Source: a virus. From it: DNA of 28,806 nt. A program made the translations under genes and the position numbers. The notes below the pieces were generated by a model. The model was not told the DNA's origin, did not search any database, and saw nothing but the letters and a program-made list of their open reading frames with translations. The stretch is taken from the IMG/VR virus record IMGVR_UViG_3300030098_005415, positions 1-28,806 of that record; one strand, 5' to 3'. Positions 5,283-19,582 of this stretch are shown here, one piece after another. Numbering within the stretch: the first letter of the stretch is position 1; the number at the start of each line of letters is the position of its first letter.

Positions 5283-6322
5283 AACACTTTATACGAAAAT
5301 CTGGTTCTGTCTTCTTAGACACCGACCTGTATAAGGCTGTTCCTAGCGAGACGTTTCAAGCTCCTCCTATGGAGATAAAGGGTAAGCGTTGGAACCCTAC
5401 TCACGGGGAAATACAACAGGCCGTATGGAAGGAAGTTACTACGGGTATGGGTCCTGGTGTCTCTGACGCTGCAAAGAAAGATTTTTACGACAGAGTGATG
5501 CGCGGAGTGTACGTAGAAAGTTCCGGTAAGCAGTACAAGCGTCCTGGTAAAATATTAACTAGCGAAGCTGGGGCTCAGGGGATTGGACAAATTATGCCCA
5601 AGACTGCTCAAGCTTTAGGGGTAAGCCCTGAAAAGAGTTGGAAAGAAGGCATTAAGGGTAAAGTTAAATACTACAAGCAGCATTACGATTTCGGCCTTAG
5701 GCATGGGATGAAATCGGACGATGCTTTAGATTATGCGTCGATGTCTTATTTCTCGGGGGGTGCGGATCGAGCTAAGAATGTCTCTGAGTTAGCTCGTCTG
5801 CAAAAAAAGAATCCCCAAGCTAACCTGTTTATGGTTCAGCAAAAGAAGTTAAAAGGCGCTCCCAGTCAGGTGGCTAAATTTGCTAACCCAAAAACTGGAA
5901 AACTAAGCCCAAATTGGCGTAGTCAGTTTTCTGCTGCCGCTAAAGATTCTCCCCGAAGAGAAGACGGTTCTAAGTCTTTTATCGGGGCTCTTGAGGGTTA
6001 CGCACAGGCAGCAAAGTCGGGTAAAAGATTTCCTAAAAATGCAGCCCCGTTGCGTGTTCCAGAGGAGCAGGCTAGCCGATACGGGTTATCTCATGGCGTC
6101 CAGATGTCAGAAGGTAAGCCGGTGGCTTCTGTGCCGGTCCACCAATCCCGACCTATGGCTTCAAGACCATCGCCTTCGGTGGCGTCTCAGAAGCCTGGGC
6201 TATTTAATAGGCTACGTAGTCGCGTTGAAGGTTTACGAAGTGGTAACCGTGCCGTATCGGCTTCAAATCCGTCTGTGACTAAGTCTATTAGTTTCGAATC
6301 TGAATTATTTGTAGAGGAATAA
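5279..6322 (+). CDS. SLT-type lytic transglycosylase, possibly virion-associated
   Basis: A 347-residue protein with a soluble lytic transglycosylase domain at ~60-170. YVESSG supplies the catalytic Glu80, followed by GAQGIGQIMPKTA, the hallmark GxxGxxQImpxTA box, and later ASMSYFSGG. It would cleave the glycan strand between MurNAc and GlcNAc with anhydro-ring formation. The C-terminal third is Ser/Pro/Arg-rich and probably disordered. The GTG start overlaps the amidase stop (GTGA) and has a poor ribosome site, implying coupling. The N-terminus carries two hydrophobic-x-Lys-Ser/Ala motifs (IRKS at 5-8, LYKA at 17-20), and VTKS lies near the C-terminus. If these are capsid-targeting cleavage tags, the enzyme is carried in the particle and helps DNA entry rather than, or as well as, lysis. 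Confidence 0.9.
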   Translation: MKHFIRKSGSVFLDTDLYKAVPSETFQAPPMEIKGKRWNPTHGEIQQAVWKEVTTGMGPGVSDAAKKDFYDRVMRGVYVESSGKQYKRPGKILTSEAGAQGIGQIMPKTAQALGVSPEKSWKEGIKGKVKYYKQHYDFGLRHGMKSDDALDYASMSYFSGGADRAKNVSELARLQKKNPQANLFMVQQKKLKGAPSQVAKFANPKTGKLSPNWRSQFSAAAKDSPRREDGSKSFIGALEGYAQAAKSGKRFPKNAAPLRVPEEQASRYGLSHGVQMSEGKPVASVPVHQSRPMASRPSPSVASQKPGLFNRLRSRVEGLRSGNRAVSASNPSVTKSISFESELFVEE

Positions 6323-8290
6323 ATGGGGCTTTTAGACAAAGCATTATCTAAGATATATCCAACCATTATATCTCCCACTGGAGAAGACCTTACTAAGGGT
6401 TGGAAGAAGATTCCAATGACGGATGCAGAGCGTCCTCCTAAGTCTTTAGCTTGGGATCCGATGTCGTTGGTTTATTCTTTGGGATACAAAGATCGTCGAA
6501 CGAACCTTACGTATGACATCTTACGCCAAATGGTCGGTTCGTTAAGTATTCTCGCTGCTATTGTTAACACTAGAGTTAATCAGGTGGCTACGTTTACGTC
6601 TCCTTACCGTCGTACTCGTAATATTGGTTTTGAAATAAAGCACAAAGACCGAGATCATAAATTAACTAACTCTGAAAAGAGATTTATTACCGAGTTAGAG
6701 TCCTTTATTTCTAACTGCGGTAAGCCTAAAGTTAACAGATTTGTTAAGCGTCCTAGAGACAATTTTGAGCAGTTCACTCGTAAGGTTATTCGCGATCGAA
6801 TGACTTACGATCAGATGACGTTCGAGGTTGTGCCTGATCGTCGGGGTGGTCCTTTTGAGTTTGTAGCTGTTGATGCTTCTACGATTCGGTTAGCGGCAGA
6901 CCCTACGGCAGACAAGTACCGTAATAAGCGTCAAGAGAAGAAAGAGCTGAAAGAGTTTTTAGAGAATTACTCTGGTTCTGCTTTGGCTTACCCGGTTATT
7001 CAAGACCCGGCTAAGAAGAACACTGCGGATTACGTACAGGTGTGGCAGGGGTCCATTATTCGTGCGTATAAGTACGATGAGCTGGCGTTTTGTATCGCTA
7101 ACCCGCGCACTGATATTCGTTCTAACGGCTATGGGTACGCTGAGACTGAGCAGTTAATTAACGTCATTACGTCCCAGTTGTGGGCTGAAGAGTATAACCG
7201 TAACTTTTTCAAACAGGGTTCAGCACCTAAGGGTCTTCTTAACATTCGTGGTGATAATATTGCACCAGAGCAGTTAGAGGCTTTTAAGCGTCAGTGGGTC
7301 GCTAATGTGGCGGGTGCAGAGAACGCTTGGAAGACGCCTATTTTGCAGAGTGAGGAGATTCAGTACCTTAATATGCAAACTAGTAATCTTGATATGGAGT
7401 ACTCGCGTTGGCTTGAGTACCTAATCAAGATTATCTGTGCTGTATTCTTAATTGCCCCGGAGGAGATTGGTTTCAATTTATCTCCTGGTGGTATGCAGCA
7501 GCCCGGTTTTGACACTAATAATGAGTGGAAATTAAAGGCATCAAAGGACCGTGGTCTACGGCCTCTTTTGCGTTATTACGCAGATGCCTTAAACAGGCAT
7601 GTTGTCGATCAGATTGACGACAAGTTTTACTTAGACTTTGTCGGTCTTGACGAATTGACCGAGAAAGAGCGTATTGAGTTGCGTAATTCTCAGGTTCAGT
7701 ACTTTAGGACTGTTAATGAGATTCGCGCAGATGAAGATCTGCCACCAGTCGAAGACGGAGATATCATTCTCAATCCTGTTTACCTGCAAAAGCTGCAAAT
7801 TGAGCATCAGTGGAAAGTTGAGGCTGAGCAGCGAAAAGACAATAAGAAAATGCAAGAAGAGCAGATGGCCATGCAGAAGCAGCAGATGGCAGCTCAGCAG
7901 CAAGCGCAAGAGCAGCAGGTGGCCATGCAACAGCAGGCACAAGAGCACCAACAGGGGGCCATGCAACAGCAGGCTGATATGCAACAGCAGCAATTGGACG
8001 CTCAGGGTGGTGATGCTCCTCCTGAGGAGGCACAGGCGTCGTCCCAAGAAGTAGGAGCTTCTTTAGAGGAGCTTGATGCAGCAGACGGTGTGCAGCCTAC
8101 AGAAGAGGTTTCTGAAGAGGCTGTAGCGGAAGAAATGCCTGAAGAGGGGGGCGCTCCTCCCGAAGAGATGGTAGCGGCGGAAGAGACTGAAGAGTCCCCC
8201 GTAAGTAAAAAACAACAACTTCAAGAAATTTTAAATTCACTTCCCCCTGAGATGTTGAGTAATAATACTCAGGGAATTGGTGAGGAGTAG
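6323..8290 (+). CDS. Portal protein
   Basis: A 655-residue HK97-type phage portal, forming the ring at the DNA-packaging and head-tail vertex. Features typical of the family: a helical N-terminal region with LAAIVNTRVNQVA, a clip/stem region with DVVPD-like and AVDASTIR segments, PRTDIRSNGYGYAETEQL near residue 265, NFFKQGSAPKGLL, and a C-terminal LNPVYL segment near 490. Residues 510-561 form a Gln/Met/Ala-rich repeat tract, followed by a Glu-rich acidic tail, making it longer than most portals (about 400-550 residues). MGLLDKA at the N-terminus matches the proposed protease-site motif at K6/A7. The start follows the upstream stop directly, with AGAGGA as ribosome site. The terminase is not in this window. 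Confidence 0.92.
   Translation: MGLLDKALSKIYPTIISPTGEDLTKGWKKIPMTDAERPPKSLAWDPMSLVYSLGYKDRRTNLTYDILRQMVGSLSILAAIVNTRVNQVATFTSPYRRTRNIGFEIKHKDRDHKLTNSEKRFITELESFISNCGKPKVNRFVKRPRDNFEQFTRKVIRDRMTYDQMTFEVVPDRRGGPFEFVAVDASTIRLAADPTADKYRNKRQEKKELKEFLENYSGSALAYPVIQDPAKKNTADYVQVWQGSIIRAYKYDELAFCIANPRTDIRSNGYGYAETEQLINVITSQLWAEEYNRNFFKQGSAPKGLLNIRGDNIAPEQLEAFKRQWVANVAGAENAWKTPILQSEEIQYLNMQTSNLDMEYSRWLEYLIKIICAVFLIAPEEIGFNLSPGGMQQPGFDTNNEWKLKASKDRGLRPLLRYYADALNRHVVDQIDDKFYLDFVGLDELTEKERIELRNSQVQYFRTVNEIRADEDLPPVEDGDIILNPVYLQKLQIEHQWKVEAEQRKDNKKMQEEQMAMQKQQMAAQQQAQEQQVAMQQQAQEHQQGAMQQQADMQQQQLDAQGGDAPPEEAQASSQEVGASLEELDAADGVQPTEEVSEEAVAEEMPEEGGAPPEEMVAAEETEESPVSKKQQLQEILNSLPPEMLSNNTQGIGEE
7850..8005 (+). 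repeat. Gln-rich imperfect repeat tract in portal C-terminus
   Basis: Codons 510-561 are mostly CAG/CAA/GCA/ATG, with short recurring units such as GCCATGCAACAGCAGGC at 7921 and about 7957. The tract is in frame and probably codes for a flexible or coiled-coil extension. Confidence 0.8.
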
Positions 8291-8292
8291 TC

Positions 8293-9357
8293 ATGAAGAC
8301 TGACGAGCACGAAAAATCTATGACGGCAGATCCTGAAGAAGTGGAAGGAAAGCCTGATATTGTTAAGGATATGACGAGTGGGTACGTAGATCCTCCCGCA
8401 GCGTCATCGCGAATGAACGCTGGGAACCCTACCCCTCCTGCATCGCCTCCCCCTGCGATGGTGAAGTCGGGTTTTATGTCTGTGTCATTGAGCAAAGCTC
8501 ATGGCTCTCCGTGCCCGTCTAAGCCCAAGTACGTAGACAGTGGTCCTGAGTGGGAAGAGGGTAAATCTTCTAAGGAAGAGCCTGTAGAGGAAGATGGGCA
8601 GTATCTCCCCCCAAGCATGAAGATGGTAAAAGAGGACGGGGAAGATAAGGTCGTAAAGAAGTCTTTCGTCTCTGCTCAGCTTAGTAAAGCAGTAGGGGCT
8701 AGTCCACCTAAGTCTGCTGCCCCTAAAGCTGGTTATGAATGGGGTAACAAGCCACCTCAAACTAAGACCCAAAATTTAACGTATTTACCTGATGATCGTT
8801 GGGATACGGGGTACGAGGAAAAAATAGCATCCCCCCAAGCAGTTAAGAAGTCTTTCGTCTCTGCCCAGCGTAGTAAGGCTGTTGGGACTACTTCACCTAA
8901 GTCTGCTCCAGCGCCTAAAACACAATTAGTAACTTCAAAGCAAAAACCGATGTCACCCAGTGATGCCCCTATAGGGACAAGAAGTGCAGGACATGGAGGT
9001 GCTTCGTACCTTCACGCAGGCAAGGGTCGTCATATTAAGGTGGGGGATCCGAAAGACCCCCAGGGCGCTAAAGAAGGACAAGAAGTATACGCGGGTACAA
9101 AGGGAGTCTCGGTAAAGAAGTTAACTCCTACAGTGCGTGAGGTAATGTCAGGTGCTTTTGCAACGCCCCAAGCAGTAAAGAAGTCCCTCACAGAGCTTCG
9201 ATACGGCTCTCAGTTAGCCCGTAATCATGACATTGGTAAGTCCTGCGGTATGTGCGGCAGGATCTCCAAATCCTGCGGTGACCACGACGGTGGTTGCTGT
9301 GGGGATTGTAAAAAATCTATGAGTTCTGTTAATTGGCACGACTCACATCTCGCATAG
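8293..9357 (+). CDS. Repeat-containing protein with C-terminal cysteine cluster, function unknown
   Basis: A 354-residue protein starting two bases after the portal stop, with GAGGAG (8282-8287) as ribosome site. It is mostly low-complexity (Pro, Ser, Lys, Gly) with three spaced copies of a ~25-residue unit: residues 56-79, 121-145 (VKKSFVSAQLSKAVG) and 184-209 (VKKSFVSAQRSKAVG), plus a shortened VKKSL at ~295. Most copies hold two hydrophobic-x-Lys-Ser/Ala motifs. Residues ~230-275 (YLHAGKGRHIKVGDPK and following) look like a small folded domain. The C-terminus carries C318, C321, C328, C335, C336 and C339 with H331, a probable metal-binding knuckle. Position between portal and protease, and the motif density, suggest an internal or scaffold-associated head protein. 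No family is recognised. Confidence 0.85.
   Translation: MKTDEHEKSMTADPEEVEGKPDIVKDMTSGYVDPPAASSRMNAGNPTPPASPPPAMVKSGFMSVSLSKAHGSPCPSKPKYVDSGPEWEEGKSSKEEPVEEDGQYLPPSMKMVKEDGEDKVVKKSFVSAQLSKAVGASPPKSAAPKAGYEWGNKPPQTKTQNLTYLPDDRWDTGYEEKIASPQAVKKSFVSAQRSKAVGTTSPKSAPAPKTQLVTSKQKPMSPSDAPIGTRSAGHGGASYLHAGKGRHIKVGDPKDPQGAKEGQEVYAGTKGVSVKKLTPTVREVMSGAFATPQAVKKSLTELRYGSQLARNHDIGKSCGMCGRISKSCGDHDGGCCGDCKKSMSSVNWHDSHLA
8653..8919 (+). repeat. Two diverged copies of a ~75-bp coding repeat
   Basis: 8653-8727 and 8842-8919 both encode VKKSFVSAQxSKAVG followed by a Ser/Pro-rich stretch ending in Pro-Lys. A weaker third copy lies at 8458-8529. The DNA differs mainly at third codon positions. Confidence 0.85.
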
Positions 9358-10459: not shown

Positions 10460-10635
10460 AAGTAGATTTTGAAATAGACACTGTCCAAGTACGTAGTGGT
10501 GAGATTAGGAAGTCTTTATCTGTTTACAATGACCCTGCGTCTATTGCGGTTAAGCTCTTGCTGATTAAGAGCGAGGTAGAAAACCTAAATGACGTACAAA
10601 GGCTGTTTAATCAGTTCTCGGTTATAGATGAATAA
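10456..10635 (+). CDS. Small 59-residue protein in head cluster
   Basis: The ATG overlaps the preceding stop (ATGA, 10456-10459) and the stop TAA (10633-10635) overlaps the next start at 10628. The ORF therefore exactly bridges an otherwise unexplained 168-base gap in a densely coupled operon, which is the main support. The protein begins MKVDFEIDTVQVRSGEIRKS, a beta-strand-like start ending in an Ile-x-Lys-Ser motif shared with neighbouring head proteins. The rest looks helical (IAVKLLLIKSEVENLNDVQR). No family is recognised. Confidence 0.75.
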   Translation: MKVDFEIDTVQVRSGEIRKSLSVYNDPASIAVKLLLIKSEVENLNDVQRLFNQFSVIDE

Positions 10636-11074
10636 TCCGCTATCAGAAGAAGATATTTCGAAGCACTTAGAAGCTCTTTCTAAGGCTGCACCGCTTGAGA
10701 GCTATTGTACGAACTGCGGTGATTGCTGTCGTCCCAGCGTCACGGTAAAAAGTATTAATCATTCGCCTTTTAAAATATTAGTTAAAGGGTTGAGTTGTAA
10801 GTTCAATAAATCTATTGGCGGAAATAGTACTTGCACTGTTTATGAAGAGCGGTTTCAGAAAGCTGGGTGGTGCTTGGACCTCAAGGGAATGATTAGTGAG
10901 GGAGTAGCCCCTAGCGATTGTCCTTACGTTGATACCCTTAAGGGGTATCAGCCGACTCTAGATTTAGAAAATAATCAGTATAAATCTGTTTTACCTTTGT
11001 TAAAAAAAGCTATATCGTCTGCAGATACCAGCCCATTCGCAGACGAAGACATTGATGGTTTTTTGGGAAGCTGA
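10628..11074 (+). CDS. CxxCxxCC metal-cluster protein (YkgJ-like)
   Basis: A 148-residue protein with C27, C30, C33 and C34 in the arrangement CTNCGDCCR, then C57 (LSCKF), C69 (STCTVYEER) and C82 (GWCLDL). This is the layout of the YkgJ/UPF0153 family (CxxCxGxCC..., then C.vY..RP..C), thought to bind zinc or an iron-sulfur cluster; the biochemical role of that family is poorly defined. ALSKAAP at 16-22 and LKKA near the C-terminus match the hydrophobic-x-Lys-Ser/Ala motif, hinting at processing in the prohead. It overlaps the previous gene by eight bases and is followed directly by the protease gene. The metal-binding call is good; the function in a phage head cluster is unknown. Confidence 0.8.
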   Translation: MNNPLSEEDISKHLEALSKAAPLESYCTNCGDCCRPSVTVKSINHSPFKILVKGLSCKFNKSIGGNSTCTVYEERFQKAGWCLDLKGMISEGVAPSDCPYVDTLKGYQPTLDLENNQYKSVLPLLKKAISSADTSPFADEDIDGFLGS

Positions 11075-11815
11075 ATGAACGAGACACTGAACTTTAATTT
11101 TTGGGTACCCATCAGTAAGGCTAAGTCTACTGATAAGGGTGACGCGCGTATCATTGAGGGTATTGCGTCGACCCCTCATGTAGACTTGCAAAACGAAAAA
11201 GTAGCTCAAAACGGTATCAATTATGACTACTTTTTAAAGCATGGGTATTTTAACTGGGACCATAAGCCCGGTGCCGAGAACAAGATCGGAGAGCCCTGGG
11301 AGGTTAAAGTCACCCCTAAAGGACTTTATGTTAAGGGCATCATCTACAAGGGTAAGAAGGTAGCTGATGCTGTGTGGGAGCACATTAACGCTCTTACTAA
11401 GAACCCTGATTCCAAGCGTAAGGTTGGTTTTTCGTTGCAAGGGAAGACTGTCCGTCGCAATGGAAATTCCATTCTGAATTGTTGGATTCAGGATATTGCT
11501 ATTACGACGGCCCCTATCAACTACAACACTTACTTAGATGTAGTTAAGGCGTTTAGTGGGTATAGCTGGGAAGAAGGCAATATAAATAAAACACTAGCCG
11601 CTGGGGGTTCTGTATTGACTCCAGAGTCACTACATGGGGACCCCGAAGATGTGTCTTTTGGCGGTAGTTCAGAAAAAAGTAAAAAAAGCAAAAAATATAC
11701 TGAGAAAAGTCTTGCAAATCTGATACAACGTCAATTAGGTTACTCATCAGGAACATCTGAGAAGCTCTCAAATGTGATTTTCAGGTTGGGCATTGCCAGG
11801 AGAACAACAGAATGA
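11075..11815 (+). CDS. Prohead serine protease
   Basis: A 246-residue protein that should mature the prohead by cutting scaffold and capsid proteins. Residues ~20-155 fit the S78/XkdF-like caudoviral prohead proteases of herpes-assemblin fold: IEGIASTPHVDLQNE, then FNWDHKPG with catalytic His63, GLYVKG, VGFSLQGK with nucleophile Ser120, and IAITTAPIN. The His-Ser spacing (57) is close to the family norm. The C-terminal ~80 residues are Ser/Lys-rich and may be removed by self-cleavage; ISKA (13-16) and VVKA (just after the domain) match the proposed site motif. It lies immediately before the scaffold-like and capsid genes, the classic order, and its stop overlaps the next ATG (ATGA). Confidence 0.88.
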   Translation: MNETLNFNFWVPISKAKSTDKGDARIIEGIASTPHVDLQNEKVAQNGINYDYFLKHGYFNWDHKPGAENKIGEPWEVKVTPKGLYVKGIIYKGKKVADAVWEHINALTKNPDSKRKVGFSLQGKTVRRNGNSILNCWIQDIAITTAPINYNTYLDVVKAFSGYSWEEGNINKTLAAGGSVLTPESLHGDPEDVSFGGSSEKSKKSKKYTEKSLANLIQRQLGYSSGTSEKLSNVIFRLGIARRTTE

Positions 11816-12534
11816 CAACGCAGATTACACCAATGCAGCCGGGTAACCACCAACCTATGGGAGTTGAGTGGGCCGGTAGCAAGCCCGAGAAGATTGATAA
11901 AGAGGAAGAGGATCGAGTAGCCGAGAACGGCACCGATTATGTTCCTTTTAAGAAAAGCCAGCGGCTTTATAAGTCTTTAATTCAGGACACTGAGTTAGTC
12001 AAGGCTATGGATGACGAGCCTGAGGACGAGGATGCTGAGGAGCAGATGGACAAGGCTGGTTACGGTCACATGGCCGCTCCTGTCCGTAAGTCTTTCTTTG
12101 AGTACGTTGAGAGCAATCCGACTTTAATGGCCGGTATTGATAGCTCGCCGTTTTTATACGAGATGGTTAAATCCATTGGGTACTCGTTCCTTAATTTAGA
12201 GGATCGTTTGGGTACCCAGATGTTCCAGATGGACACGAATTACGACCAGTTTGCCAAGAGCGTCGATGGCGTTTTTGACGACTTGGGTAAAAGCCTTGGT
12301 TTCATCAATGGTACAGCTGAGGATATTGAGGTTCAGAAGTCTGTCCAGACTACTGAGAATGTAGAGTACCTTGAGAAGGGTGGTTTCGGTGAGACTGCTG
12401 GTCCTGGCCGACAGCAGATTGTCAACGCTCTGATGAAGGGTGTTGAGGCCGGTCAGATTTCCCCGACCGAGGTTATTAAGTTTGAAACCACGGGGGCTCT
12501 GTCTCCGCACATCCAGAAAAGCCTGGGACTGTAA
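11812..12534 (+). CDS. Scaffold-like head protein 1 (paralogue of the next gene)
   Basis: A 240-residue acidic protein between protease and capsid genes, the usual scaffold position. It begins with PGNHQPMGVEWAG and ends with ALMKGVEAGQISPTEVIKFE and IQKSLGL; both blocks recur in the next gene, which is also 240 residues long. Ten hydrophobic-x-Lys-Ser/Ala motifs are spaced along it: FKKS, LYKS, LVKA, MDKA, VRKS, MVKS, FAKS, LGKS, VQKS, IQKS. Cutting at these would reduce the protein to small peptides, as expected for a scaffold expelled during maturation. AGGAG stands 10 bases upstream of the ATG, which overlaps the protease stop. Scaffold identity is inferred from position, paralogy and motif density. 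Confidence 0.8.
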   Translation: MTTQITPMQPGNHQPMGVEWAGSKPEKIDKEEEDRVAENGTDYVPFKKSQRLYKSLIQDTELVKAMDDEPEDEDAEEQMDKAGYGHMAAPVRKSFFEYVESNPTLMAGIDSSPFLYEMVKSIGYSFLNLEDRLGTQMFQMDTNYDQFAKSVDGVFDDLGKSLGFINGTAEDIEVQKSVQTTENVEYLEKGGFGETAGPGRQQIVNALMKGVEAGQISPTEVIKFETTGALSPHIQKSLGL

Positions 12535-12539
12535 GGGGA
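12533..12539 (+). promoter_or_regulatory. Ribosome binding site for the gene at 12545
   Basis: AAGGGGA overlaps the stop of the preceding gene and ends five bases before ATG 12545. It fixes the start there rather than at the in-frame codon at 12440, which lies inside the upstream gene. Confidence 0.7.
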
Positions 12540-12544
12540 TATCG

Positions 12545-13267
12545 ATGTCTGACACGTTATATGAGTCTGAGATTTTAAAATCTTTGGAAACTTTGGACAA
12601 TATCCTTTCCAAAGCCCAGATTGAGAAAGAGCAGCCCGGTAATCACCGCCCGATGGGCGTTGATTGGGCTGGTACGGATGTTGAGAAAGAGGACGAGCGC
12701 GATAACGTCCCTGACGGCACGGACTACAAGGCCATTAAGAAGGGCCAAGAGGCCCGTGAAGAGGCCGACGTAGACGAGTACCGTAAGGGTAAAGAGCAAG
12801 GCTTCTGGGAGGCAGAAGAGAAAGAGAAGGACGAGAAGATGGACAAGAGCGTCCGCTCTGGTGTGGAGGTCAGTGACTTCCTTAACGAGTTGACCAAGTC
12901 GATTGCCGTCTACTGCGCTGATTTAGAGGACCACGTTGTCAAGTCGTTGGAGCAGATCCACGAGGAGAACGGCGCGATGTCCAAAGCGATTGCGGAGAAC
13001 CTTGCTGTTCTCACTGATGTTGTTGCCAAGTCGCAAGGCAACATCGCTGAATACGCTGAAGGCCCTGCTCGGGGTCCGAAGAGTATGCTCGATATGAGCA
13101 AATCGGTTTCGGGCTCGAATGAGCCTGAGCTGTCCAAGAGTGTCGTCCTTGACGCTCTAATGAAGGGTGTTGAGGCTGGCACCGTTTCTCCTCTTGATGT
13201 TGTCAAGGTGGAGCAATTTGGTGTTCAGGCCATTAATCAAGATGTCGTCAAAAGCCTTTTAGCTTAG
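12545..13267 (+). CDS. Scaffold-like head protein 2 (paralogue of the previous gene)
   Basis: A 240-residue acidic, probably helical protein, the same length as its upstream neighbour. It shares the block PGNHRPMGVDWAG (residues ~35-47) and the C-terminal block DALMKGVEAGTVSPLDVVK. It carries ten hydrophobic-x-Lys-Ser/Ala motifs: ILKS, LSKA, MDKS, LTKS, VVKS, MSKA, VAKS, MSKS, LSKS, VVKS. The first lies at residues 10-13 and the last five residues from the end. Codon choice shifts here toward C-ending codons, as in the following capsid gene, suggesting high expression. It lies 19 bases before the capsid start. Scaffold function, with destruction by the prohead protease, is inferred from context; the paralogy is directly visible. 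Confidence 0.82.
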   Translation: MSDTLYESEILKSLETLDNILSKAQIEKEQPGNHRPMGVDWAGTDVEKEDERDNVPDGTDYKAIKKGQEAREEADVDEYRKGKEQGFWEAEEKEKDEKMDKSVRSGVEVSDFLNELTKSIAVYCADLEDHVVKSLEQIHEENGAMSKAIAENLAVLTDVVAKSQGNIAEYAEGPARGPKSMLDMSKSVSGSNEPELSKSVVLDALMKGVEAGTVSPLDVVKVEQFGVQAINQDVVKSLLA

Positions 13268-13286: not shown

Positions 13287-14723
13287 ATGTTACCTCAGAT
13301 AAGCATGAAGGACTACGACGGGCTGAACGGCTTCGGCACATCGACGATGGGCGATGTTAACGAGCTGTCTAAGGCACTTAGCGCAGGTTATCAGGTCTCC
13401 AATCAAACTGGTGGATCTGCTCTTCGCGTTGAGAGCCTTGAGGCCAGCCTGAAAGTAGTCACTTTCACGAACAAGCACATCAAGCTCTGGAAGAAGATTC
13501 CAAAGAGCCCTGCCTACTCAACCGTTGAGGAGTACAACGTCCTCAGCCAGTACGGTTCGCAAGGTTTCGGATTCACCCGCGAGGGTGAGCTTCCGCAGAG
13601 CCAGGATAGTACCTTCACGCGCATGACCGCGCTGGTGAAGTTCATCGGTACGACCCGTGCCGTGACTCACCCAGCCACCCTGGTCAACCCGGCGCACGGA
13701 GATGTTATCGCTCTGGAGAACCAGAACGGTATCCTCTGGCTGTTGGAGCGTGTTGAGGATTCCCTCTTCCACGGCAACTCCGGTCTCGCCTTTGACGGTG
13801 AGGCGGAGCAGTGGGACGGCCTCGATACCATGATCGCCAACGCCAATGTTGTCGACCTTGAGGGTCAACCCCTTCAGGAGGCTGACATTGAGGAGGCGTC
13901 CAACCTCGTCATCGAGAACTACGGTTACCCCACGGATATCTTCCTTGGTACCCGCGCGATGAGCGACCTCGTCAAGACCTTCTACCCGCGTGAGCGCGTA
14001 CAGATGCCTGCCCCTTCGGACGGTAAGGTTGGTCTTAACGTGACCTCGATGGCTACCCAGGCTGGTACCATTGAGTTCAACCCGGACGTCTTCCTGCGTC
14101 AGGGCAAGAACCCGCCCGCTGCTGCCACGAGCGCTAACGCTCCTGCTGCGCCAAGCGCTTGTGCGTTGGGTGTGGGCGCTTTGACGACTGGCTCCTGGGC
14201 TAAGTCGCTTGGTGCCGGTGCGGGTAACTTTGCTTACGCAGTTACCGCGTGTAACCGCTTTGGTGAGTCGGCTCCGTTTATTTCGGGGCTTCAGGCTCTT
14301 ACTCCTGCCGAAAACGCAGCGGGTAACCAGATTACGGTTGCTCCCAGCAACGCTGCGGTTGTTGGTGCCAACCCCACTGAGTACTTGATTATCTACCGTA
14401 CTCGAACGGTGGCGGGCGCTGCTGCCCCGACCGACCTTAGCGCGTACAGTGAGATTGCTCGGATTCCGGCCACCACTCAGGCGGCTGGTGCGGCACACAC
14501 CGCGTTCAACGACATCAACGCAATCATGCCCTTTACGGAGACTGCTTACTTGGGCGAGCTTACCCCTTCGGTGCTCACCTTCCGTCAGCTTGCTCCTCTG
14601 ATGCGTATGGACCTTGCTGTGATGGGACCGGCTTACCGCTGGATGGTCCTGATGTACGGTACGCCTATCCTCTTCGCTCCGCGTAAGTGGGTACGGCTGA
14701 CCAACATTGGTCGTATGGCCTAG
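13287..14723 (+). CDS. Major capsid protein with inserted Fn3/Ig-like domain
   Basis: A 478-residue HK97-fold capsid protein. It shows the pattern of capsid proteins of large myoviruses: SALRVESLEASLKVVTF, LWKKIPKSPAYSTVEEYN, TREGELPQSQDSTF, VKFIGTTRAVTHPATLV, NGILWLLERVEDSLFHGNS, and a C-terminal LMRMDLAVMGPAYRWMVLMY. Residues ~1-29 look like a short propeptide, since ELSKAL places the proposed protease site between K29 and A30. Residues ~275-412 interrupt the fold with an Ala-rich linker and a segment like fibronectin-III/Ig domains (FAYAVTACNRFGESAPF; YLIIYRTRT), probably surface-exposed on the shell. Codon use outside the insert favours C-ending codons, as in strongly expressed genes. The TAG stop shares a base with the next GTG. 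Confidence 0.92.
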   Translation: MLPQISMKDYDGLNGFGTSTMGDVNELSKALSAGYQVSNQTGGSALRVESLEASLKVVTFTNKHIKLWKKIPKSPAYSTVEEYNVLSQYGSQGFGFTREGELPQSQDSTFTRMTALVKFIGTTRAVTHPATLVNPAHGDVIALENQNGILWLLERVEDSLFHGNSGLAFDGEAEQWDGLDTMIANANVVDLEGQPLQEADIEEASNLVIENYGYPTDIFLGTRAMSDLVKTFYPRERVQMPAPSDGKVGLNVTSMATQAGTIEFNPDVFLRQGKNPPAAATSANAPAAPSACALGVGALTTGSWAKSLGAGAGNFAYAVTACNRFGESAPFISGLQALTPAENAAGNQITVAPSNAAVVGANPTEYLIIYRTRTVAGAAAPTDLSAYSEIARIPATTQAAGAAHTAFNDINAIMPFTETAYLGELTPSVLTFRQLAPLMRMDLAVMGPAYRWMVLMYGTPILFAPRKWVRLTNIGRMA

Positions 14724-15796: not shown

Positions 15797-18700
15797 ATGG
15801 GTTTTGCAGAGAGAAATAGCAAAGCTGGAAGGATGTCTAGCGTATCCTTCCCGGACGCTATCAAGCGCGGATCGAGCGATTCCGCAACACAGTTCACTAT
15901 TCAGATCACTGACGCTAACGGGTCGCCTAACGACCCTGATAGCGCTACGCTTTACGTCCGCGTAACTAACGCGGCTGGTACAGCGCAGGATAGTCTTCTT
16001 TACACCGATTCGGGCCTTAGCAGTGCAGCCACTAATAGTACCAACGGTACTTACGCTAACTCTGGTAGCGCTTTTTGGAAGTCTGCCAGCACTTCTAACG
16101 GTTCGGTTACGCTCTTTCACAAGACGGGTACTGCGTCTAGTGTAGAGGGAATTTACCACCTTGAGTACGCTTGGTTTGAGGGCGGAGAGGCGATCAGCGG
16201 CTCTCAGATGTTCCGCATCATTGACCTTGCGGACATGGACGACCTCAATACCAATGTTGGTAGTGACTCCGATGGTTCTAGCGCGAGTGGTTCGGTTCAC
16301 GCCAAAATAAAAGACGTTAAAGCTGCTGTTGCGGCTCTTAACGACCCTACCGCTGCTGGAAATGCTGACGCCGTTTGGGACGAGGCTACTTCAGGGCACA
16401 GTAACGCAGGAAGTGCTGGTAAAGCACTTACTGACATCCTTGCCGACACCAATGAGCTTCAGGGCGATTGGACTAATGGCGGTCGCCTCGATGCCATCTT
16501 AGACGCTGCCGCTACTGCTGCTGCCCTTGCTGTTGTAGATCAGAACGTAGACGACGTTGAAGCCGCTGTTGGTGCTCTTAACGATTCGGCTTCTGCTGAC
16601 TACGGTACCGATAAGACCGCAATGGGGATGCTCCGTAAGTTAGGAGCTGATGTTGCTACAGTTGACGGTGTTGCTGACGCTATCCTGGTTGACACTGGCA
16701 CGACTATACCAGCTACGCTTGGTAGTCCTGCTGGTGCGTCTATGGCCGCTGACATTGCTGCGGTTAAGGCTGTTGTAGATAGTATCTTAACGGATACGGG
16801 CACTACACTAGACGACCTTATCGATACCGAAGTTGCAGCTATCTTAGCCGACACCCATGAGCTTCAAGGTGATTGGGTCGATGGAGGTCGCCTCGATGCT
16901 ATTTTAGACGCCGTTAAAGCGGTTACTGACGTTCTTCCTGACAGTGGTGCCCTTAGTAGTATTGCTACTGCTGCCGCACTTGCCGTTGTGGACCAGAATG
17001 TCGATGATGTCGAGTCTGCTGTTGGCGCGTTAGATGCCGCTGCTTCCGCTGACTACGGTACTAGCCGACCCGCAATGGCTATGCTCCGTAAGTTGGGGGC
17101 TGATGTTGCCACTGTCGATGGAGTAGCTGATGCTATTCTGGTCGATACCGGTACGACTCTTCCAGCTACTCTCGGTAGTCCTGCTGGCGCGTCTATGTCG
17201 GCTGACGTCGCTGCGGTTAAGTCGGTTGTGGATGGTATTCAGTCTGACCTTAGTAATGGTACTGACGGTCTTGGTGCTCTTAAGGATCTTATTGACACGG
17301 TCGACACGGTTGCTGACGGTATTCAGTCTGACCTTAGTAATGGTACTGACGGTCTTGGTGTTATTAAGAGTGCTATTGATGCTGTTAGTACGGCAGTTAG
17401 CGCGGTTCAGAACAACACTCGATTTGTTGCTGTTGTTCCTCCGAAGCTCAATCGCCCAGGTAGTGGGTCTGAGGCTGTTGGCATCGTGGCGTACCTGTAC
17501 GACACCTCAGGCAACATGGAAGATCCTGACAGCAACGAATTGTTCGTCAAGATTATGCAGGTCGACGGCACAGCTATTGCCAGTCGTTACTACTCAGACT
17601 CGGGGTTAAGTTCGGCTATCTCGGCAGAGGGATCGGGCACTTTTAGTGGCTACTACCCTCTGACACGAGTTGCTGCCGGTAAGTACATGTTCTTCTACAA
17701 GAGCAGTACCGGAGATGCAGAGGAAAGCTTATCTGTTGAGTTTGGCTGGGAAGAGGGCAGTGCTGCTCGCCTCCAAGCTCGTGGTATGCAGATCAGCGAT
17801 GCTGCTGACCTCGACGATATCGTCGCGGACACCAATGAGCTTCAAGGCGACTGGACCGACGGTGGTCGCTTGGACACTATCCTCGATAGTGTTTTAGCCG
17901 ACACTGCTGCTCTTGACTCAGCTTGGGCTGACGGCGGTCGTCTCGATGCTATTTTAGATGGCGTTCTTGCTGATACTGCCACTTTAGGCGCTCCTGCCGG
18001 TGCTAGTCATGCGGCGGACATCGCAGCTATCAAGACGGTTGTGGACTCCATCCTGGTGGATACCGGAACTACCCTTGACGACTTAATCGATACTGAAATC
18101 GCAGCTATCCTTGCGGACACCCATGAGCTTCAAGGTGATTGGGTCGATGGAGGTCGCCTCGATCTTCTCTTAGATGCTGTCAAGGCGGTTACGGATGCTC
18201 TTCCCGATAGTGGTGCCCTTAGTAGTATTGCTACGGCGGCAGCGTTAGCTGTTGTAGATCAGAACGTAGACGACGTTGAGGCTGCGGTTGGTGCTCTTGG
18301 CGCTGCGGCTTCTGCCGACTACGGTACCGATAAAACCGCAATGGGAATGATCCGCAAATTAGGTGCGGACGTTGCTACGGTTGACGGTGTGGCAGATGCC
18401 ATTCTGGTTGATACTGGCACGACCATCCCAGCTACCCTTGGTAGTCCAGCGGGTGCGTCTATGTCGGCTGACGTTGCTGCGCTTAAGACGGTTGCCGATG
18501 GCATCCAGACTGATCTTAGCAACGGTACTGATGGCCTTGGCGCTCTTAAGAGCCTTATCGATACCGCTGACGCGGCTATTGATGCTGTTGGTGTTGATGT
18601 TGGCGACTTTAGTGGCGGAAGTAATCTTCAGTCCCTCAAGGCGGTTATCGGTACCAAGCTGGATGCCCAGAACGTAGCTCTCGACGCTATGCTCATGCTG

Positions 18701-19582
18701 GCTAACGGCAGTGTCTACAAGGTAGCAAGTAACAGCCACTCTGGGAGCGGTGGTACTTTCACCCTGACGACGTTAGGCTCTGGGTACCACGGTGCTTCGG
18801 CGGCTAACGACGAGTACGTTGGTGGCACTTTCTGCGTTCTCGCAGGAAGCAATGTCGGTCGCATCGTACAAGCCGTAGACTACAACGGAAGTAACGGTCA
18901 AGTTACTTACGGTGGAGCGTCCCTCGCTGACGATGACGTCATCGGATTTATTCCGGCATGGGGCTACATTGGTAGGTCTGACGACGCGGCTGCTTCTAGT
19001 GCTTCTGACGCAGGCAAAAGCTTGTTTGCTCGTTTGCGCTACATGGCAGATCAGATGGAGGCCAATAAGGGTACCCAACGTGGTACCTTTAAGAAGTACC
19101 TTAAGCGGTCTACTGCTGGTACTTTAGGCAACGACCCAACTGATACGGCGGAGTCGGCAGCGGGTACCACTACTTCTGATGCGTTTACCATTCTGGATGT
19201 CCAGACTATCTCGTTTGACGAGGGTTCGGACGCTTCTATCGAAGACATCTTTGCTGTCTTCAAGTGGAAGCACCAGGGCACTAATGGTGGCGGCGGTGGC
19301 GGTATCACCACCAAGTGGTACATGTCAGGAGGAGCCAGTGCTCCTAGTGCAGGTGCTGCCATCAGCAGTGTGGGAGATGCAGTAGCAGTATCAGACGGAA
19401 TTGCTGGTACTTCGACGGCTTCCACTAATAGCGTCAGTGGTCTTATTAATCAGAACGCACTTGATGCGTTCTCGAACGGTAAGATTCATGTCATGCTTTG
19501 CGGTAAAGCGGGTACTTCTGGGGACACTTGCACGGGTTGGATCTTCCACTCGTCAAGCCTTGAGGTTACCTACGAGGTGTAA
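15797..19582 (+). CDS. Large repetitive fibre-like virion protein
   Basis: A 1261-residue protein alone between two terminators, with AGGGGA as ribosome site. Order: a beta domain (~15-150); a long heptad-like region with repeats; a second beta domain (~540-680) that resembles the first (shared DPDS...L, YxDSGLSSA, E.GWEEG/E.AWFEGG and a closing Asp-Leu-Asp-Asp); another repeat region; and a beta-rich C-terminal part (~970-1261) with a six-Gly hinge before ITTKWYMSGG. The motif LADTxELQxDWxxGGRLDxxLD occurs five times, a pattern common in fibre-like proteins of environmental phages. It probably forms an elongated trimer on the head or tail surface that contacts the host; the C-terminal domain would be the binding end. 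Receptor and exact position are unknown. Confidence 0.82.
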   Translation: MGFAERNSKAGRMSSVSFPDAIKRGSSDSATQFTIQITDANGSPNDPDSATLYVRVTNAAGTAQDSLLYTDSGLSSAATNSTNGTYANSGSAFWKSASTSNGSVTLFHKTGTASSVEGIYHLEYAWFEGGEAISGSQMFRIIDLADMDDLNTNVGSDSDGSSASGSVHAKIKDVKAAVAALNDPTAAGNADAVWDEATSGHSNAGSAGKALTDILADTNELQGDWTNGGRLDAILDAAATAAALAVVDQNVDDVEAAVGALNDSASADYGTDKTAMGMLRKLGADVATVDGVADAILVDTGTTIPATLGSPAGASMAADIAAVKAVVDSILTDTGTTLDDLIDTEVAAILADTHELQGDWVDGGRLDAILDAVKAVTDVLPDSGALSSIATAAALAVVDQNVDDVESAVGALDAAASADYGTSRPAMAMLRKLGADVATVDGVADAILVDTGTTLPATLGSPAGASMSADVAAVKSVVDGIQSDLSNGTDGLGALKDLIDTVDTVADGIQSDLSNGTDGLGVIKSAIDAVSTAVSAVQNNTRFVAVVPPKLNRPGSGSEAVGIVAYLYDTSGNMEDPDSNELFVKIMQVDGTAIASRYYSDSGLSSAISAEGSGTFSGYYPLTRVAAGKYMFFYKSSTGDAEESLSVEFGWEEGSAARLQARGMQISDAADLDDIVADTNELQGDWTDGGRLDTILDSVLADTAALDSAWADGGRLDAILDGVLADTATLGAPAGASHAADIAAIKTVVDSILVDTGTTLDDLIDTEIAAILADTHELQGDWVDGGRLDLLLDAVKAVTDALPDSGALSSIATAAALAVVDQNVDDVEAAVGALGAAASADYGTDKTAMGMIRKLGADVATVDGVADAILVDTGTTIPATLGSPAGASMSADVAALKTVADGIQTDLSNGTDGLGALKSLIDTADAAIDAVGVDVGDFSGGSNLQSLKAVIGTKLDAQNVALDAMLMLANGSVYKVASNSHSGSGGTFTLTTLGSGYHGASAANDEYVGGTFCVLAGSNVGRIVQAVDYNGSNGQVTYGGASLADDDVIGFIPAWGYIGRSDDAAASSASDAGKSLFARLRYMADQMEANKGTQRGTFKKYLKRSTAGTLGNDPTDTAESAAGTTTSDAFTILDVQTISFDEGSDASIEDIFAVFKWKHQGTNGGGGGGITTKWYMSGGASAPSAGAAISSVGDAVAVSDGIAGTSTASTNSVSGLINQNALDAFSNGKIHVMLCGKAGTSGDTCTGWIFHSSSLEVTYEV
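16721..17299 (+). repeat. 193-codon coding repeat, copy A
   Basis: This segment aligns without gaps to 17987-18565. About 22 of 193 residues differ by eye, while the DNA differs at many third codon positions. It begins with Gly-x-Pro-Ala-Gly-Ala-Ser and ends with Leu-Ile-Asp-Thr. Confidence 0.9.
17234..17360 (+). repeat. Exact 43-bp direct repeat
   Basis: 17234-17276 and 17318-17360 are identical (GGTATTCAGTCTGACCTTAG and following) with an 84-base period. The repeat is in frame, giving two copies of GIQSDLSNGTDGLG. Confidence 0.92.
17987..18565 (+). repeat. 193-codon coding repeat, copy C
   Basis: Gapless counterpart of 16721-17299, placed after the second beta domain of the same gene. A partial additional copy of the same unit covers about 16510-16760. 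Confidence 0.9.

Follow-up and report, generated by a model that had tools for sequence, protein, structure and literature searches.

Gene organisation of the head locus

The window, that is the whole stretch of 28,806 nucleotides that was analysed, represents 28.8 kb out of a 32.5 kb virus record and holds head and tail genes of a SPO1-like phage. Between the gene of a head maturation protease and that of the major capsid protein (MCP) lie two scaffold-like genes, called here A and B, at the coordinates and with the 240-residue length that a preliminary description of this DNA had given for both. The features to which we refer below are:

11075-11815, plus strand: head maturation protease, 246 aa; phrog_1028, E 1.2e-46; relative of SPO1 gp3.2
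11812-12534, plus strand: scaffold paralogue A, 240 aa; phrog_3660, E 1.2e-4, and phrog_15087 (head scaffolding), E 1.8e-4
11839-11877, plus strand: PGNHQPMGVEWAG block of A, an A-family feature within the window's subclade
12088-12144, plus strand: KSFFEYVESNPTLMAGIDS helical KSFF segment of A, residues ~93-111; kept as in the single-copy form, for the most part lost from B
12148-12336, plus strand: long central helix of A, residues 113-175; AlphaFold block pLDDT falling from 92 to 56 at the C-terminal end
12409-12525, plus strand: C-terminal three-helix domain of A, residues 200-238; contains ALMKGVEAGQISPTEVIK at 12427-12480
12545-13267, plus strand: scaffold paralogue B, 240 aa; phrog_15087 (head scaffolding), E 3.1e-7
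12551-12622, plus strand: N-terminal amphipathic helix of B, residues 3-26; the same in the single-copy form, absent from A
12635-12673, plus strand: PGNHRPMGVDWAG block of B, in 2/14 B proteins only; probably from an A-type gene
12875-13060, plus strand: long central helix of B, residues 111-172; AlphaFold block pLDDT falling from 93 to 56 at the C-terminal end
13064-13084, plus strand: PARGPKS linker motif of B, kept in 14/14 B and lost in 14/14 A
13136-13261, plus strand: C-terminal three-helix domain of B, residues 198-239; contains ALMKGVEAGTVSPLDVVK at 13154-13207
13287-14723, plus strand: MCP of SPO1 type, 478 aa; phrog_752, E 3.1e-103

The stop codon of the protease gene overlaps the start of gene A as ATGA (11812-11815), A and B are separated by ten bases, and an AGGGG is found 7 bases 5′ of the B ATG. 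B is counted as 240 aa from the ATG at 12545; a mechanical ORF list has a longer GTG start at 12440. The equal length of the two proteins, pointed out in the preliminary description, is a coincidence, the relatives having A proteins of 209-259 aa and B proteins of 230-304 aa. Directly 5′ of the protease gene, 10628-11074 encodes a small cysteine-rich protein with a weak, sub-threshold match to CxxCxxCC (PF03692), and next to the head genes, 15797-19582 encodes a protein of 1261 aa that contains long ADIAAVKAVVDSILTDTGTTLDDLIDTE-type repeats in its interior.

Family assignment and paralogy of A and B

The term "scaffold-like" is borne out for both proteins, which match phrog_15087, the family of SPO1 gp3.3, at the E values listed above. 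Gene A matches gp3.3 genes of the SPO1 group in tblastn, and the profile of the single-copy homologues aligns with SPO1 gp3.3 (E 1.8e-13) as well as with the profiles of A (E 2.5e-36) and B (E 7.4e-42). As in the SPO1-type family, A and B sit between the maturation protease and the MCP, the position which in SPO1 is occupied by gp3.3, a putative scaffold according to its annotation. We infer a scaffolding function for gp3.3-type proteins from where their genes lie, from their architecture and from the annotation. Searches of Pfam up to E 1 gave no match of A or B to PF12699 (phiKZ-type inner head paralogues), and T4-type core families were absent from the PHROGs and Pfam results of these family searches.

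In BLASTP, residues 3-238 of A and residues 24-238 of B are 31% identical (E 1e-22). When the families of A and B, with 14 orthologues each, are compared by hhalign, the alignment covers 210 columns with a probability of 99.94 and E 5.7e-37. Judged by these alignments, A and B are full-length paralogues, as had been proposed. The common motifs PGNHQPMGVEWAG / PGNHRPMGVDWAG and ALMKGVEAGQISPTEVIK / ALMKGVEAGTVSPLDVVK are present as described, and the middles are indeed diverged, yet homologous. The opposite reading, chance similarity confined to the two blocks with different folds outside them, was dismissed on both counts: the BLASTP and hhalign alignments extend over the full length, and at the level of predicted helices the AlphaFold models of A and B have one architecture.

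These models, made from 38-sequence alignments, consist of an acidic, disordered N-terminal half, a helix of ~62 residues, whose block pLDDT is 87-93 in the first half and drops to 56 where it ends, and a domain of three helices at the C-terminus (block pLDDT mostly 84-91). They differ by an extra N-terminal helix (residues 3-26) in B and an extra helical segment (~93-111) in A. In all relatives, the length of the acidic disordered regions varies freely. Overall model confidence is low (mean pLDDT 66, pTM 0.30 and 0.24), which is no surprise with an extended scaffold, and thus the arrangement and partners of the proteins are not readable from the models. Foldseek against viral models returned one weak significant match per protein, unnamed or uncharacterised, and the sole PDB match, a 608-residue "spike protein" chain (E 8e-5), is a probable coiled-coil match.

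Copy number among relatives and origin of the pair

Searching viral contigs with the MCP gave 80 loci. The 16 loci whose MCP shares 68% identity or more with that of the window all carry two scaffold genes, and their protease-MCP interval measures 1453-1648 bases; the other 64, at 66% identity or less, have one ORF in a gap of 902-1176 bases, this single middle ORF being under the phmmer cut-off in L084 and L092. Together with loci from other searches, the 16 two-copy loci were reduced to 13 distinct genomes. Besides the window, 13 distinct loci have the order protease-A-B-MCP, and A and B are adjacent and co-oriented in every case. One main ORF lies between protease and MCP in the isolates SPO1, LysYB1, EalM-132, DAC19, BM15 and A9, and also in Remus, Bacchae, S25-3, phiAGATE and P100plus. 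For the middle ORF of Kayvirus S25-3 no homology to the scaffold was detectable, and the annotation of Enterococcus phage Carl is fragmentary in this interval. The duplication had been called unusual, which holds with a restriction: only a single metagenomic lineage, of large uncultured phages, has the two copies, and none of the isolates inspected does.

In Thermus phage TMA and Chryseobacterium phage MA9V-3, no separate scaffold gene follows the protease, which at 532-544 aa has double its normal length (L125 3489-5087 and L132 3312-4946 for MA9V-3 and TMA). These long proteins are perhaps protease-scaffold fusions, although profile comparison detected no scaffold homology in them.

The scaffold tree recovers an A clade of 14 (support 99/94) and a B clade of 13 when L098 is set aside (100/99), the B of L098 being a long branch that branches first. 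A and B group together against all single-copy forms at 87/82. In the MCP tree, 13 two-copy loci form one clade (99/98), and a single origin for all 14 two-copy loci, L098 included, was not rejected (p-AU 0.51). The trees fit one ancient tandem duplication, with the A+B grouping itself not fully supported.

Some of the relatives have features of their own. The MCP gene of the early-branching, two-copy L098 is split by two group I introns (6233-6478 and 6599-6878; Rfam RF00028, 90 bits each). Relatives of the window's MCP (46-59% identity) are encoded by contigs of a Myxococcales groundwater MAG and by L120, a contig of 59 kb that is listed as an uncultured archaeon (LFW-28).

Probable exchange of sequence between the copies

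The PGNHxPMGVxWAG block near the N-terminus had been taken as pointing to shared ancestry. In the window's subclade it characterises the A proteins; among B proteins only 2/14 have it (those of the window and L014), and the remaining ones carry a different sequence at this position, as do the single-copy forms. Over 42 nucleotides, the block in the window's B has 81-86% identity with A genes, within the range found among A orthologues themselves (76-98%), and over a stretch of 113 nucleotides the identity with the A gene of L009 is 83%. On the block stretch alone, A as a single clade is rejected (p-AU 0.008, for a stretch of ~40 residues and a group chosen after the pattern was noticed), when the whole protein supports it. 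Inherited homology was thus discarded as the source of this block: it is rare in B, its DNA is A-like and the A clade is rejected on the stretch, so that sequence appears to have moved between the paralogues after their divergence. The block in the window's B is best explained by such an exchange, probably received from an A-type gene.

Complementary loss of segments

HMMs built from segments of the single-copy proteins were run over A and B, with shuffled sequences as the control. The central helix and the C-terminal domain were found in 14/14 A and 14/14 B; the PARGPKS linker was detected in every B (14/14) and no A (0/14), and the KSFF...EN segment in 13/14 A and 3/14 B. For the N-terminal helix (7/14 B, 1/14 A) the comparison is weak because the motif is short. 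Its loss in A would rest mainly on the start of the A proteins at a Q[IL] motif, which in B and the single-copy forms follows the helix. With dN/dS of 0.06-0.21 in both copies, synonymous sites being near saturation in several pairs, the substitution pattern indicates that A and B are under purifying selection.

Features of the single-copy form are divided between two copies, both constrained, as in subfunctionalisation. Such complementary losses are the pattern expected when ancestral features are split between duplicates, and the functions may have been split as well. The suggestion that the two genes serve two functions gains plausibility from the complementary losses and the selection acting on both.

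Putative cleavage sites and the maturation protease

The preliminary description counted ten protease-like motifs in each protein. Read as K[SA], ten is the number in A, and B has 12; shuffled sequences hold 2.1 and 3.8 respectively, and none of 20,000 shuffles reached the observed values. A and B are thus dense in putative K|S/A sites, as are the SPO1-group scaffolds (mean 13.3 K[SA]). Among 23 window proteins tested, just two had a weak excess, 8293-9357 (p 0.011) and 10628-11074 (p 0.010). The latter holds six K[SA] sites against 2.2 expected. The former is 354 aa long, contains repeats of a KKSFVSAQLSKAVG-like unit, has 15 sites against 8.4 and is possibly another head protein cut by the protease.

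The MCP propeptide is predicted to be cut at ELSK|ALSAGY, between residues 29 and 30, and KA before xxGY is found in 69/72 relatives. From this site conservation we infer a K|S/A specificity for the protease. Computed full cutting of A and B at K|S/A would yield pieces of 4-60 residues. In the related Listeria phage A511, the capsid protein is cut between lysine and serine; for SPO1-like phages, we found no published K|S cleavage data in the open-licence literature.

The C-terminal tail of the protease holds a copy of the MCP cleavage site together with the mature N-terminal arm. An example is the L017 protease (residues 172-211), where NVDK|ALSAGYQTSNQTGGSALRPESLD corresponds to ELSK|ALSAGYQVSNQTGGSALRVESLE of the MCP (HMM E 4.6e-16); the copy is also found in SPO1 gp3.2 (L001, 1.6e-9) and LysYB1 (1.5e-12). 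In the window's protease the copy is degenerate, NK|TLAAGGSVLTPESLHGDPEDVSF (11588-11659, residues 172-195), and in most single-copy metagenomic relatives it was not detected. It may act as a substrate mimic or as a capsid-docking peptide.

Discussion

We consider it rather probable that A and B arose by one tandem duplication of a SPO1 gp3.3-type scaffold gene and that they now form a two-component, cleaved scaffold. In the ancestor of the lineage, a single head scaffolding gene of this type would have been duplicated in tandem to give A and B. Both proteins, probably produced in quantity, would build an internal core by joining along their long central helices, and their common C-terminal helical domain would contact the capsid shell. 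The maturation protease encoded upstream would then cleave A and B at K|S and K|A into small peptides, and the head would fill with DNA. With the ancestral features divided, the N-terminal helix and the PARGPKS linker to B and the KSFF segment to A, the two proteins would most likely work jointly rather than as spare copies. What the analysis establishes is the paralogy, the position, the family, the restriction to one lineage, the complementary losses, the purifying selection and the enrichment in sites; scaffolding, joint assembly, cleavage and a division of labour are proposed. A stronger version, in which duplication and splitting have made the two-component scaffold obligate and repeated exchange keeps the copies compatible, is a serious possibility, but one that we put forward tentatively.

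Other fates of a duplicated scaffold gene are conceivable. Perhaps one copy, more likely B, is the true scaffold and the other an internal core or ejected protein, as are the duplicates of phiKZ-like phages. A lacks both the N-terminal helix and the PARGPKS linker, and phiKZ/SPN3US phages do possess duplicated, protease-processed inner head proteins (PMC5694885). Nonetheless, neither the central helix nor the C-terminal domain has been lost from A, and its K|S/A sites are dense. A protein that is ejected usually has a large part left after maturation, whereas A, if fully cut, would leave at most one 60-residue piece; we regard such a division as unlikely. An effect of dosage only, with A and B interchangeable and their segment differences reflecting neutral drift in a tolerant disordered protein, would agree with the freely varying length of the acidic regions, and exchange between the copies implies that one N-terminal stretch, if nothing more, can replace the other. 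However, the losses are fixed in all or nearly all orthologues across wide divergence, and outside the exchanged stretch A and B remain distinct in the scaffold tree, which makes this reading improbable as well.

It is quite unlikely, in our opinion, that no duplication took place in this lineage and that the second gene was acquired from a related phage by recombination. The support of the A+B grouping, under a strong threshold, and the early branching of the L098 B would leave room for such an origin, yet none of the sampled single-copy lineages groups with A or with B, and the two are always adjacent and in the same orientation. Little credence is given, too, to the division suggested in the preliminary description, one copy as shell scaffold and the other as portal-proximal core. 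Complementary losses would permit separate roles, and the N-terminal helix of B is a candidate for a separate contact; the C-terminal domain, however, is common to both copies, and no observation links either of them to the portal.

The two-component scaffold that we favour has its nearest counterpart in SPO1 gp3.3 (phrog_15087, Herelleviridae), to which A and B are similar in position between protease and MCP, homology, acidic and helical character and richness in K|S/A. The difference lies in copy number, SPO1 and the other checked isolates having one scaffold and the window's lineage two, which have lost complementary segments. In Thermus phage TMA and Chryseobacterium phage MA9V-3, protease and MCP belong to the same families and are adjacent, with no separate scaffold gene. 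T4 offers the likeness of a multi-protein core cut by a prohead protease, which for A and B is predicted from the genes; the proteins of the T4 core are not known to have arisen by duplication of a single scaffold. In that core, made of gp22 with gp67 and gp68 and served by the gp21 protease, several internal proteins are cut small by the prohead protease (PMC5694885). The inner head paralogue family A of phiKZ and SPN3US (PF12699) is likewise processed by the prohead protease and differs in copy number among phages (PMC5694885). Those are inner-body proteins retained in the virion, whereas scaffolds leave, and A and B have no PF12699 match. According to the SPN3US paper, paralogues are rare in most dsDNA phages (PMC5694885). 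Protease-cut multi-protein cores and processed inner-head paralogues are therefore known, and what is new here is probably the lineage-specific, two-component duplicate of a gp3.3-type scaffold, of which we found no report in the open-licence literature.

When a single scaffold does everything, it is hard to tell which part sets the shape of a large capsid. In the lineage described here, evolution may have split the parts of the scaffold into two genes, with the single-copy relatives serving as the reference state. If the parts were indeed split, their functions would be assignable by ordinary deletion and swap tests.
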